Shown here in pieces: positions 27,747 to 35,259 of a stretch of 35,259 nt of DNA. The translations under genes and the position numbers were made by a program. The stretch spans positions 1 to 35,259 of the IMG/VR virus record IMGVR_UViG_3300019776_001126. One strand, given 5' to 3'. Numbering within the stretch: position 1 is the first letter of the stretch; every line of letters begins with the position of its first letter. The notes below the pieces were generated by a model that did not search any database, had not been told where the DNA came from, and saw only the letters and a list, made by a program, of their open reading frames with translations. Origin of the DNA: a virus.

Positions 27747-28394
27747 TTAAAGGTTTGAGAAGTTAATACTGATTGCTTTGAACTTGCCTTCCTTGTCCTT
27801 TTTGTAGAACTGGTACCCAAATTTTTTGAAGTCAATTGAATACCCCTCTTTGATCAGGCGTAATCCCTCTCTCCATTTTTCACCATCGAACTCTGATTCG
27901 TGTTTGATGAACTGCATCACTTTTGAGTATTCCAACTCACCAGCTTCGTTTTTAGAAATCAAGCCCATCAACAAATTGAAGATTCCTGGTTTAGCAGATG
28001 CTGCTCCCTCTTCCATTAAAAACTCTTGAATCAACTCAACTCCTTTGTGAGCCGTTTCATCCCATTTCGGATCCGTATCACGAGATCGTGTGATCTTGAA
28101 GTTTCCGTCTTTTGAAATAATGGAGAATCCACCTTTCGACTTTGCTGGAACCAATCCAAACTCGTCAAGTTCTGAATGTTGTGCTTCCATCATGATTGCC
28201 AATTCTTCTTTGAAGTCAGACATCATCTTTTCAATCTTAACGACTCCTTTGATGGCTTTTTGAATGCGTGATTCACGGTTTTTTTCATACGCTGCACGCT
28301 TCTTGTTTTGTACTTTGCGCTCGGCTCTTTGTTCAGCAGCTAACTGATCCATCAGTTGTTTGCGCTCTGCTTCTGTTAAATTTTTGATATTCAT
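27747..28394 (-). CDS. DUF3164 family protein of Mu-like phages
   Basis: Protein of 215 residues. The middle part has the DUF3164 signature GGFSIISKDGNFKITRSRD, then KWDETAHKGVELIQEFL. The N-terminal 80 residues are a strongly charged coiled coil (EAERKQLMDQLAAEQRAERK). DUF3164 proteins are typical of early regions of Mu-like phages (position of Mu's semi-essential early genes); function unknown. The gene has an ATGA overlap with a possible 28-aa gene just upstream. Confidence 0.82.
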   Translation of the reverse strand: MNIKNLTEAERKQLMDQLAAEQRAERKVQNKKRAAYEKNRESRIQKAIKGVVKIEKMMSDFKEELAIMMEAQHSELDEFGLVPAKSKGGFSIISKDGNFKITRSRDTDPKWDETAHKGVELIQEFLMEEGAASAKPGIFNLLMGLISKNEAGELEYSKVMQFIKHESEFDGEKWREGLRLIKEGYSIDFKKFGYQFYKKDKEGKFKAISINFSNL

Positions 28395-29089: not shown

Positions 29090-29716
29090 TTATGTTAATT
29101 CGTTCCAATATTCTGCGGATCGCTCCTGGTTAATTATGAAGTCTTCACTTCCTTCGTATCTACTTTTAATAATTGCTCTGAATCCTTCGACTCTGATTTT
29201 CACGTGCGAATTGTATTCAACATAAATTGCAAGTGCTCCAAGTGGTTTTTTACCGTCGGCATGCGAAATCCATATAAATAGCTTTTGTGGAAACATGCGT
29301 ACTAGGTTCTTGTATTGCACCTTCGTTATGTTGGCAAATTGCAATGAGTCGATGATGATAATGTCCGGGCTTTTTTGGCGAGATAAACGCTCAATTAGTT
29401 CGTCAATCTCTTCATCCAAAATCACAAATCGGCGTTTTTCTGCTGCTGATAACTTGTGGCGTGTGATTGCATTCTTGAATGTAAGTGATGCTCCCTCTTC
29501 AATTGTATCATAAGCAACCTTGCCAAATTTTGTAAGGTACTTTGCCAACTGAATAGCAAAATCAGTCTTTCCATTTCCTGAATCACCATAGATAATCCAT
29601 GAACCACGCATTGCAACAACATCACCTATTGATGCCGCCCACTTTCCTGAGAAGTCCATTGATTTGAACTTCATCTTTTCCAGCTGGTCAATTGATATGG
29701 CTCTTCTCAATTCCAT
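29090..29716 (-). CDS. RecA/KaiC-type P-loop ATPase beside the MuB-like gene
   Basis: Protein of 208 residues with complete ATPase motifs: Walker A GDSGNGKT (44-51), an acidic TIEEGASLTF segment (71-80), Walker B DIIIIDSLQF (about 118-127) and ISHADGKKPLGALAIYVEY, which resembles the sensor-type motif and C-terminal strand of RecA/KaiC-fold ATPases. It starts on a TAATG overlap with the MuB-like gene, so they are translationally coupled. Because the MuB-like protein lacks key P-loop residues, this ATPase may supply ATP hydrolysis for target capture or strand transfer regulation; an inference. No equivalent is present in Mu itself. Confidence 0.78.
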   Translation of the reverse strand: MELRRAISIDQLEKMKFKSMDFSGKWAASIGDVVAMRGSWIIYGDSGNGKTDFAIQLAKYLTKFGKVAYDTIEEGASLTFKNAITRHKLSAAEKRRFVILDEEIDELIERLSRQKSPDIIIIDSLQFANITKVQYKNLVRMFPQKLFIWISHADGKKPLGALAIYVEYNSHVKIRVEGFRAIIKSRYEGSEDFIINQERSAEYWNELT

Positions 29717-30567
29717 TAAGCCGCTTTTTTAGATTTAGCCAATCCAAGGTATTTTTCAATACCACGTTTCAATCCTCGCATGTCTTGTTCTGATGCGTTG
29801 TAGATCTGCATGATCAAATCTTCATCTTCAATACCATTTGCACGGCATACAAGCGCTGCATCTTCTAATGTGAAATTTGGAAGTGCTATAAATTTTCTAC
29901 CAACTCTTGAGTATAATTCTCGATATCCAACTTTATCGCGTTGTACACCTCTTAAAACTCTTTTTGACAGCGCTAATACTCCTGACAATACAAATGCGCA
30001 GTGGCCTTCTAAATCATTGTAGAAATCCATGAATAAATCCAATTGTGGATCTTTCAATTTATCTGCCTGGTCAATTATGATAATTGGGCGTTTCAATGTG
30101 CGAACATGCTCAATGAAGTTCTCTATCAACTCACCAACGGTTCCTTCAGATGAAAGTCCAGCAGCGCGGAGCAATGCTTGAACGTATGTTTTCTTTGTCC
30201 AATAGTTTTTGCATTCAACAAGAATCACATTTTCGTGCGTGCGTTCGTAGCGTTTGTATGTATGCGATTTAGAACGACCTTCTTTCATTGAAATGGCAAT
30301 TGACATTCCACCGTGTTGAGTGATTCTGATTAATTGCATTAGATTCAAATAGTTTGAAGTGTCTGCGTGGTTCCAACCTAGGTCAATCTTCAAAGCCACT
30401 TGAACTTTGCGCCACATTTCGTCTTTTATCAAATCCCATTTTCCGTTGATAATGTGATTGATAGTTGCTCCTGATACGTTTGCTTTAACAGCTATCTTTT
30501 GTTGAGAAAGCTTGTCAGCCATTAGAGCAACCTCAGTGGAAATTTGTTGTTTTTGTTGAGTTTCCAT
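29716..30567 (-). CDS. MuB-like transposition protein with degenerate P-loop
   Basis: Protein of 283 residues following the transposase by 7 bases, as MuB follows MuA. Residues 1-60 are an HTH of the MuB N-terminal type (LSQQKIAVKANVSGATINHI). The AAA+ core has a degenerate Walker A at 94-101 (MKEGRSKS: the first and third glycines are Met and Ser, while Lys100 and Ser101 remain) and Walker B PIIIIDQADK with Gln167 in place of the usual catalytic Glu. The later SGVLALSKRV segment and the YRELYSRVGRKFIALPNFTL segment are typical of MuB relatives. MuB binds target DNA and activates the transposase; ATP hydrolysis may be impaired here. Confidence 0.85.
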   Translation of the reverse strand: METQQKQQISTEVALMADKLSQQKIAVKANVSGATINHIINGKWDLIKDEMWRKVQVALKIDLGWNHADTSNYLNLMQLIRITQHGGMSIAISMKEGRSKSHTYKRYERTHENVILVECKNYWTKKTYVQALLRAAGLSSEGTVGELIENFIEHVRTLKRPIIIIDQADKLKDPQLDLFMDFYNDLEGHCAFVLSGVLALSKRVLRGVQRDKVGYRELYSRVGRKFIALPNFTLEDAALVCRANGIEDEDLIMQIYNASEQDMRGLKRGIEKYLGLAKSKKAA

Positions 30568-30574
30568 GTTTTAT

Positions 30575-32533
30575 TTATAGGTAAGTGAATACTGAATCTG
30601 ATTCGACATCTGAGCGAGTGTCTTTTGGTAAAGTGGATCCCATTTTAATCATCCACTCTTGATCATCAATTAATTTTTCAGGTGTTATTCCTGTTCGGTT
30701 GCGAAGCGCTTCCAATTCTTCAAGATCACGTTGTAATTCTTTTTCACGAATGGAGTAATCTTCGAACCATGCTTCTTTGTCACCTTCAGTCATAAGAACT
30801 GGTATCTCTTGATGCGCTCGTTTCGGTTGTGCATGAGCAACAAGTACTTTATTGCCGTTGGCTGCAACCTCAATTAGTTGTATATAGCTGTCTAATTGCT
30901 CAGGATCATATCGAACAATGAACTTTTTACCGATGTTGTAGCGTCTGAAATTCAAATCAACTTTATCATCCTTGTCATATACTTCAAAAATGTATTCTTG
31001 ACCAGCGATGCGAAGGTGTAAACCATCGTTTTTATAGGTGATTGGTTTCGTTTCATTGATCCAAAACAGGTCAATCATATCTAAGAAGTCTACTGATTCT
31101 GCCATTGGAGCAGGAGCAGCATATACTTCTGATCGGGTTTTATTTGGAATCAATGGATGTGCAGCATTATTCCACATGCTTACAGCCAATTCCCACGCTT
31201 TAATCAATTCTTCTTTAGAAAGTAATCTGTGTTTATTAGCAAGGATGAAATCGATGTTCGGAACATTGTCTTTTGAACGTGATTTGATCGATTGTTTATC
31301 CGAGAACCAAAATGTACTGATTACTTGCTCTTGAAGTCGGTTAAAAATCTGCTCCGCTGGATTGGATTTCATTCTTGGAGCAGTTGGATTGTGAACGCCA
31401 CCTTGTTTTGCAATGATTCCGCTGTATAATTCTTGCATTCTGCTCGACTTGTGACCTGATTGGTTATCGTATGTCAACTTGTATGGTCGTGCCTGTGTGA
31501 AATTCAATGCTGATTTTAATGCTGTGAAGTGATCAACATGGTTTTCAGTCTCAGAAAGTGAGTAACCAATAATCATTTCAGAATACACATCGAATACAGG
31601 ATTGATTTTCAATTTAGCTGCCATGCCTGTAACATGATCCTGGTAATGAACCCAATCAAGCTTCGTTCCATCGATTGCCCAATATGCATTCGGAAACCAT
31701 TCAGATCTATCACGTGACAACTTGTGTTGAAACATGTTTGAATAGGTTTCTTTTCCGTGGCGTGCTAGGTACCAAATACGTTTGTTTTCAGGACGCTCTA
31801 AGAAGTTGTAAATTGCAGATTCTGATAACGTAGGCCATCCTTTTGCAATTCGGATCTGATCGTACAATGCAAGCAATGTTGGAATCAATGGTTTGTTAGG
31901 TTGGCAATACGTAGCGAGGAGAAAGTCGGCTATTTCTCCCGTAATTTTAACCCTGTTATCGTTCTCAATTCCTCCATGAACTAGAGAACTGTAGCCGACC
32001 GATTTAAATTTGCGGAACAAACGTTCTACTGAACGATGGTTTCCTGGTATAGAATGAGAATATTGATTTGATGGCAGTTGATTGATGGCATTTGAGATGT
32101 TTTCCCAAAGTCGTTTTGTGTTGCCTGTTACTTTGCTTCTGTTCGTTGCTTTTGAAATAACGATCGTGTCGATTGCATTAAGAATGATAGCATTTGTTGT
32201 GTATTCAAGTTGCTTTTCTTTTGGAAGAGGCTTACCGTTCGACTTTCTGAAAGCTGTGAAGAATGCAGCAGCTTCATAATCGGGTTTCATGTAAGATTCA
32301 AATATTGTTTTCTGAGCAGTTTGCGTTGGATCACCAGCAAGTTGAATTATCTTTTCTTTGATGTCTTCACGCTTGATTGAATTGAACTCAACCAATGCCT
32401 CTCTACCATTGCCACCTTTCTGAACTACGTTAATGTAGTTTCTTCTCTTGAAATTATCGTATCCATGCTTTCCAAATAGACTTATTATCTGTTCAGCTTT
32501 GACACACAATTGATTGTTATGGTAAGTATACAT
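30575..32533 (-). CDS. Mu-type DDE transposase (MuA-like)
   Basis: Protein of 652 residues that catalyses strand nicking and transfer at phage ends, for integration and for replicative transposition. The rve/DDE core has Asp288 in YWAIDGTKLDW, Asp356 in LTYDNQSGH and Glu394 in SNPAEQIFNRLQ, a D-68-D-37-E spacing in line with the MuA group. The C-terminal beta-barrel (EYIFEVYDKDDKVDLNFRRY) matches Mu-transposase C-terminal domain, ending in a helical tail rich in Glu that may contact MuB. The N-terminal 60 residues resemble a winged-helix (QIISLFGKHGYDNFKRRNYI). Length is close to MuA's 663 residues. Its target ends should lie outside and near 34100-34750. Confidence 0.95.
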   Translation of the reverse strand: MYTYHNNQLCVKAEQIISLFGKHGYDNFKRRNYINVVQKGGNGREALVEFNSIKREDIKEKIIQLAGDPTQTAQKTIFESYMKPDYEAAAFFTAFRKSNGKPLPKEKQLEYTTNAIILNAIDTIVISKATNRSKVTGNTKRLWENISNAINQLPSNQYSHSIPGNHRSVERLFRKFKSVGYSSLVHGGIENDNRVKITGEIADFLLATYCQPNKPLIPTLLALYDQIRIAKGWPTLSESAIYNFLERPENKRIWYLARHGKETYSNMFQHKLSRDRSEWFPNAYWAIDGTKLDWVHYQDHVTGMAAKLKINPVFDVYSEMIIGYSLSETENHVDHFTALKSALNFTQARPYKLTYDNQSGHKSSRMQELYSGIIAKQGGVHNPTAPRMKSNPAEQIFNRLQEQVISTFWFSDKQSIKSRSKDNVPNIDFILANKHRLLSKEELIKAWELAVSMWNNAAHPLIPNKTRSEVYAAPAPMAESVDFLDMIDLFWINETKPITYKNDGLHLRIAGQEYIFEVYDKDDKVDLNFRRYNIGKKFIVRYDPEQLDSYIQLIEVAANGNKVLVAHAQPKRAHQEIPVLMTEGDKEAWFEDYSIREKELQRDLEELEALRNRTGITPEKLIDDQEWMIKMGSTLPKDTRSDVESDSVFTYL

Positions 32534-34757: not shown

Positions 34758-34809
34758 CGGCAAATTAAGCGTGTTTCTGTTCGACGGATTCACCGAATCG
34801 AAGAGAATT

Positions 34810-35259
34810 ATGAAGAGAATCATTGAATACAGAAAGTTATTTAACGTAACACGAGAAGCCAACCTAGCTGATTTAAAAAAAGTTTACCGCAATTTGGTAA
34901 AAGAATGGCATCCAGATAAATTTCAAGATGGTGATCCAAAAAAAGAAGAGGCTGAATTGAAAAGTCAAGAAATCATTGAAGCGTATTCTTTCCTTGTAAG
35001 TATTTCTCCTGAAACACATGCATTAACAAAAGATGAATACACGGAAGTGATCAATACAGAAATGATTGAAGATTTTCAATACAAAGGAATGGCGCTTAAA
35101 ATCACCTTCCAAAACGGAAATGTTTACGAATACTTCAATGTTCAACCGAGCGTTTACAACAAAATGCGCAGCACTCCAACTTTAGAGCGTTTCGCGCGAC
35201 GCCATGTTCTTTCATCTTACACATTCAGAAAGGTGATGAATACTAAAGGAGACAACTAA
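34810..35259 (+). CDS. J-domain (DnaJ) and KTSC domain protein, probably host
   Basis: Protein of 149 residues from ATG at 34810; an upstream GTG (34771) adds no conserved sequence. Residues 3-65 are a J domain with the HPD motif at 34-36 (KEWHPDKF), the Hsp70-stimulating element. Residues 88-142 form a KTSC domain (ALKITFQNGNVYEYFNVQPS, STPTLERFARRHVLSSYTFR), a small domain often found alone or at the end of lysyl-tRNA synthetases. Fusion of J and KTSC domains suggests an Hsp70 co-chaperone. The gene has its own promoter and no phage neighbours, so it marks the host side of the insertion. Confidence 0.88.
   Translation: MKRIIEYRKLFNVTREANLADLKKVYRNLVKEWHPDKFQDGDPKKEEAELKSQEIIEAYSFLVSISPETHALTKDEYTEVINTEMIEDFQYKGMALKITFQNGNVYEYFNVQPSVYNKMRSTPTLERFARRHVLSSYTFRKVMNTKGDN

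Follow-up and report, generated by a model that had tools for sequence, protein, structure and literature searches.

Two adjacent genes of a transposable phage of Bacteroidota bacteria raise the question of how ATP is used when a MuB-like protein with an unusual ATP site is coupled to a second ATPase. The original prediction, made from the window (the whole stretch of 35,259 nucleotides analyzed), held that the P-loop of this MuB is broken, that its neighbor is an intact RecA/KaiC-type ATPase, and that either the neighbor hydrolyzes ATP in its place or target-site control has changed. Both open reading frames lie where they had been placed, and they are joined by TAATG, in which the stop TAA and the start ATG have one base in common. 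Every motif that had been quoted is present: MKEGRSKS (94-101) and DQ (166-167) in MuB, and GDSGNGKT (44-51) in the ATPase. MuB directly follows a gene for a MuA-type DDE transposase here and in nearly all relatives, and the gene order MuA-MuB-ATPase is likewise kept in nearly all of them. Positions of the features are collected in Table 1.

Table 1. Genes and diagnostic residues at the MuA-MuB-ATPase locus, in window coordinates
Feature	Position	Strand	Remarks
MuA-like DDE transposase, directly upstream of MuB	30575..32533	minus	652 aa; PHROG 310 transposase E 6e-59; rve E 2e-6 (below Pfam cut-off)
MuB-like AAA+ target-capture protein, Gln-type Walker B	29716..30567	minus	283 aa
MuB N-terminal helix-turn-helix, residues 22-41	30445..30504	minus	model helices 22-29 and 33-41; weak HTH_3 match below Pfam cut-off
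MuB Walker A, residues 94-101, MKEGRSKS	30265..30288	minus	first Gly replaced by Met, Gly before Lys by Ser; Lys100 and Ser101 kept
MuB Walker B, residues 162-167, ending D166-Q167	30067..30084	minus	Gln in place of catalytic Glu
MuB sensor-1 position, Val197	29977..29979	minus	Thr or Asn in most others
MuB Arg221 of SR(I/V)G motif	29905..29907	minus	108/108; kept down to Mu (SRIA in Mu)
Second ATPase, RadA-core-like RecA-fold protein, translationally coupled to MuB	29090..29716	minus	208 aa
Second ATPase Walker A, residues 44-51, GDSGNGKT	29564..29587	minus	G49 and K50 invariant in 105 sequences
Second ATPase Glu73, after strand 3, likely catalytic	29498..29500	minus	invariant in 105 sequences
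Second ATPase Walker B Asp123	29348..29350	minus	98% conserved
Second ATPase Arg186, at KNRFG arginine of RadA	29159..29161	minus	104/104 sequences reaching that position

The assignment of the upstream product as MuB is firm. It matches PHROG 296 (DNA transposition protein, E 2e-42), Pfam AAA_22 (E 2e-12) and, in a PDB profile search, the solved Mu B protein (E 3.6e-19) as well as TnsC, and its comparison with Mu MuB by hhalign gave an E-value of 3.5e-16. The AlphaFold model has a mean pLDDT of 96.1, and its best fold match is the MuB filament 8xvb (Z 23.3, 214 residues, 2.4 Å), followed by TnsC (Z 20.5). By sequence and fold, homology to Mu MuB (8xvb, 8xvc) covers the helix-turn-helix and AAA+ domains, and the gene directly follows MuA in Mu as well. 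Residues 104-139 also matched models of the Shiga toxin B subunit (E 0.004 to 0.04); these matches were dismissed as chance, being far under the cut-offs and within the AAA+ domain.

Relatives were collected from viral contigs, bacterial genomes and phage records by scanning for similarity to the window MuB, so the sample is uneven. The set holds 109 distinct MuB sequences including Mu, and the Winoviridae phage Peternella, hankyphage p00 and Porphyromonas phages are among the named members. Comparisons were made across the 108 Bacteroidota-type (non-Mu) sequences. At residue 167, 58 of these have Gln and 50 have Glu, with nothing else found, and we call them Gln-type and Glu-type; loci are cited by L numbers. 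The ATP pocket of MuB was assessed by alignment alone.

The P-loop differs from the expected motif as had been described, but "broken" is too strong a word, since the P-loop Lys and Ser are retained. Gly97 and Lys100 are identical in 108/108 non-Mu sequences, and residue 101 is always Ser or Thr in the alignment. At residue 99, where the motif has a Gly ahead of the Lys, the window shares Ser with L001 and L002, and Ser appears separately in L030, L047 and L048 (Winogradskyella). L001 reads GRSKS at 74% identity to the window protein and L002 reads GHSKS at 61%. Glu-type proteins vary at this residue too, with Cys in L132 and L133, Ser in L119 and Thr in L138. At least five changes at residue 99 are needed on the tree, and the Ser99 codons differ (TCT, TCA and AGC). 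Between the window MuB and L001, dN is about 0.20 and dS about 2.5, giving a dN/dS of about 0.08 that is rough because dS is saturated. MuB is thus under strong purifying selection. The motifs of L001 and L002, the three codons and the low dN/dS together show that MKEGRSKS is neither chance nor error, and strong selection with a Ser kept via different codons rules out GRSKS as a degenerate relic. The change from Gly to Ser is local, and L003 and L005 (57% identity) carry GKS, one of the two outcomes that had been named as refuting the original prediction. Given these GKS sequences and the repeated changes on the tree, the alignment points to a recurrent swap of small residues at position 99 and not to a dead P-loop. 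In the window phage and its nearest relatives the Ser is only a small further step, and similar substitutions arose repeatedly within the family.

The clade-wide change lies in Walker B, sensor 1 and the first Gly of the P-loop. Residues 164-167 of the window MuB are I-I-D-Q, and the Asp of this motif is invariant across the 108 sequences. Residue 197 occupies the sensor-1 position, Asn in Mu and Thr in TnsC by alignment, and is Val in 57/58 Gln-type proteins and Thr in 45/50 Glu-type proteins. Residue 94, the first Gly of the P-loop, is Gly in 43/50 Glu-type but 0/58 Gln-type sequences, which have Tyr, His, Asp, Glu, Met or Phe there. Few positions in the entire protein distinguish the two types as sharply as residues 167, 197 and 94, and the types largely separate on the MuB tree, with three changes. 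Because Mu, as the root, sits on a very long branch, the direction from Glu to Gln is one that we infer, from the Glu present in Mu, TnsC and hankyphage.

The Mu-type MuB loci that we fetched have GxxGxGK[ST], DE and mostly Asn at sensor 1. The window MuB departs from all three of the canonical AAA+ residues for hydrolysis, having MKEGRSKS for GxxGxGK[ST], DQ for the Walker B Glu and Val197 for a polar sensor 1. Compared with Mu MuB itself (GxxGxGKT, DE, sensor-1 Asn), the window clade lacks the first Gly and has DQ and Val, and the Lys, the Asp and the SR arginine are kept in both. As far as sequence can tell, these residues make an active ATPase less probable, but they do not weaken homology.

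With Gly97, Lys100, Ser or Thr101, Asp166 and Arg221 kept, while Gln167 and Val197 are present and Gly94 is absent, binding of ATP without cleavage is to be expected, and Gln-type MuB is predicted to bind ATP with weak or no hydrolysis. The suggestion that MuB here does not hydrolyze ATP gains support from the Walker B Gln, the sensor-1 Val and the absent first Gly, but none from GRSKS. The reading we favor, with some confidence, is that MuB of this clade has evolved from an ATP switch into a protein that mostly holds ATP, and that the neighboring ATPase is a separate part of the operon which does not replace MuB activity. This shift would have come about by joint loss, with the catalytic Glu becoming Gln, the polar sensor-1 residue becoming Val and the first P-loop Gly disappearing. 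Gln-type MuB would bind ATP, then oligomerize on target DNA and recruit MuA, with hydrolysis slow or absent.

For Mu, the clearing of MuB from DNA close to the phage's own ends accompanies MuA-stimulated MuB ATPase activity (PMC2837660; PMC7350765), and genome immunity is only partly dependent on MuB (PMC7350765). Unlike Mu MuB, the Gln-type protein would not be cleared by MuA-stimulated hydrolysis, and in that case cis-immunity in these phages would either be weak or depend on other factors. A clade without the hydrolysis residues of MuB amounts to a natural experiment that asks if target immunity depends on hydrolysis at all; Glu-type and Gln-type orthologues both occur in nature and allow a direct comparison.

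The same substitution has been studied in relatives. IstB E167Q, engineered in the IS21 transposon in a protein whose N-terminal part differs from that of MuB, repeats it in the corresponding motif; ATPase and integration activity are lowered and the IstA-IstB complex is stabilized, while the fold is unchanged (PMC11208146). In TnsC, Glu to Gln in Walker B is hyperactive in Tn7 and crippled in Tn6677, ShCAST and McCAST (PMC11406308). Since the effects differ between relatives, sequence does not reveal what the change does in phage MuB. Some TnsC proteins of type V-K CAST systems, which are also target-selecting AAA+ partners of a DDE transposase, have already been reported to lack the Walker B Glu naturally (PMC11406308). 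The window clade is different from these in having Gln only, uniformly across the clade, together with changes at sensor 1 and the P-loop, and in working with MuA instead of TnsB. Our literature search found no biochemistry for any Gln-type MuB and, with incomplete coverage, no description of the clade.

Another possible explanation is that Gln-type MuB still hydrolyzes ATP, with Gln167 tolerated because another residue activates water or because the rate is limited elsewhere. The base might be a different MuB residue. Elsewhere the site, Arg221 included, is strongly conserved, and low natural rates are usual in the family, with IstB alone having limited ATPase activity (PMC11208146). Plain tolerance of Gln would not, however, lead one to expect that sensor 1 and the first P-loop Gly are altered too, and we consider continued hydrolysis unlikely, though a serious contender. 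Loss of nucleotide binding in the subclade of the window, leaving MuB as an ATP-independent scaffold on DNA, seems very improbable to us. The SKS in place of GKS, the Met or Glu at the first Gly and the absence of a typical Walker A from some type V-K TnsC proteins (PMC11406308) would fit a scaffold, but Gly97, Lys100, Ser101 and Asp166 are retained, and the change of residue 99 to Ser, Cys or Thr in several separate branches, Glu-type ones included, looks tolerated.

The second ATPase is closest to the core of RadA. It belongs to PHROG 6891 (ATPase, E 3e-67), and its best NCBIfam match is RadA (5e-6). The model has a pLDDT of 96.9, its first four Foldseek matches are RadA, and VIA gave a Z of 18.5 against RadA 8rxc (190 residues, 2.9 Å), with KaiC the next family at Z 16.1. 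The protein has a RecA-like core, for which RadA-core-like is a better label than "RecA/KaiC-type". Alignment by hhalign to RadA of a host genome (E 3.5e-9, 162 columns) places Arg186 on the arginine of KNRFG, the motif that supplies the arginine finger of RadA (PMC5512693). The window reads KSRYE at this position and some relatives read KNRFE. Like bacterial RadA/Sms, the protein has intact Walker motifs, and with its key residues intact beside both MuB types it looks enzymatically active from the alignment. Unlike RadA/Sms, it starts at the core without the N-terminal C4 zinc finger, its sequence having no Cys, and it ends after the core without the C-terminal Lon-like domain. With both parts missing, it is a relative of RadA and not RadA itself, and its activity may differ. 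The partner would be a single-domain motor, most likely acting on branched DNA from strand transfer or at a restarting fork. Database records call it helicase, serine protease or ATPase, and our literature search, with incomplete coverage, found no stated function for it. Its PADLOC matches (PtuA and others) reflect generic P-loop similarity and not defense.

The partner could instead be a Sak4-type RecA-like single-strand annealing protein for phage DNA recombination. Sak4 proteins are also small phage ATPases of the RecA fold and of similar size, and there are weak matches to Sak4 PHROGs 124 (E 3.5e-4) and 2872 (0.024) and an hhalign E-value of 7.6e-6 to HK620 Sak4. These similarities are weaker than those to RadA in hhalign, NCBIfam and fold. 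HK620 Sak4 lacks the KNRFG motif to which Arg186 aligns (PMC5928155) and works with a cognate SSB, whereas no SSB appeared among the Pfam and PHROG matches of the ten early-region proteins scanned. We regard a Sak4 role as doubtful and keep RadA-core-like as the description of the partner.

Occurrence of the second ATPase was counted at MuB loci. It is present at 57/57 Gln-type loci with downstream sequence (L053 stops at the contig end), so the other outcome named as refuting the original prediction, a degenerate MuB without the second ATPase, is not seen among these loci, and at 48/50 Glu-type loci, L095 and L098 lacking it with the neighboring order kept. The gene lies within 30 nt of MuB in 107/124 loci, and in L232 it is 3.2 kb downstream. 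A deep Bacteroidota lineage with a very different MuB (L229 and L230) also has it. L003 and L006 have Gln-type MuB proteins 62% identical to that of L007. The nearest match of their ATPase, at 50%, is instead that of L229, whose MuB shares no more than about 27% identity with these groups; this indicates that the ATPase was exchanged between distant lineages. On its own tree, the ATPase tracks MuB type about as loosely as it tracks lineage, with four changes. The second ATPase is best seen as a separate component, kept in the early operon of almost every Bacteroidota transposable phage.

The idea of a two-part machine for target control, in which a dead MuB had its hydrolysis taken over by the second ATPase, does not hold up as the main account. 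Tight coupling to MuB, by TAATG in the window and by short spacing in most loci, would suit it, as would the presence of the partner at every Gln-type locus and the Glu-type MuB of both syntenic loci without a partner. However, the same ATPase is equally intact beside a canonical MuB with GxxGxGK[ST] and DE in hankyphage p00, Porphyromonas phages and the Glu-type loci generally, the partner of L003 and L006 is common with a distant lineage, and 57/57 against 48/50 is no clear difference. Co-occurrence with both MuB types, exchange and the loose fit of the trees all argue against a partner specialized to rescue a dead MuB, and we set the idea aside as highly unlikely. Also improbable, in our view, is a loader-and-motor pair in which ATP-held MuB, an AAA+ cousin of helicase loaders, hands a ring motor of RadA/DnaB type onto the strand-transfer product. 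If true, it would mean that a phage motor links target capture, immunity and fork restart, replacing MuB hydrolysis and host primosome proteins in a way unseen in Mu. The arrangement of two ATPases does differ from Mu, as had been proposed, since the fetched stretches around Mu-type MuB contain no relative of the second ATPase.

Several loci deserve a separate mention. In L095 (5001-6341) and L098 (5001-6540), the Glu-type MuB is followed by a small conserved early gene with the RadA-like ATPase absent; these natural losses are useful as controls. The ATPase is also absent from L231 (8133-9974), where MuA is split over several frames and the prophage looks decayed. In some Glu-type phages (L060, L107, L124 and others), MuB and the ATPase are separated by a few hundred bases, occupied in L060 (5244-5642) by an annotated small gene. 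L229 (7889-11449) and L230 (6498-10100) are Mu-like prophages whose MuB has DDCGIGKT and DEAGDL or DEFGDL, with the ATPase directly downstream. The apparent swap of the ATPase involves L003 (5755-6378) and L006 (6501-7115) against L229 (7889-8518), while MuA and MuB stayed.

Elsewhere in the window, positions 27747-28394 on the minus strand encode a DUF3164 protein (Pfam E 1.5e-14), a conserved early gene among related phages. Beyond the repressor, a frame on the plus strand (34771-35259) is open to the window end and may be host flank or phage; by eye it resembles a DnaJ-type domain and then a KTSC-like one. Hankyphage p00 also has a gene annotated as a DNAJ chaperone, after its ATPase. Positions 1-816 on the minus strand resemble, by eye, a Dam-type adenine methylase.
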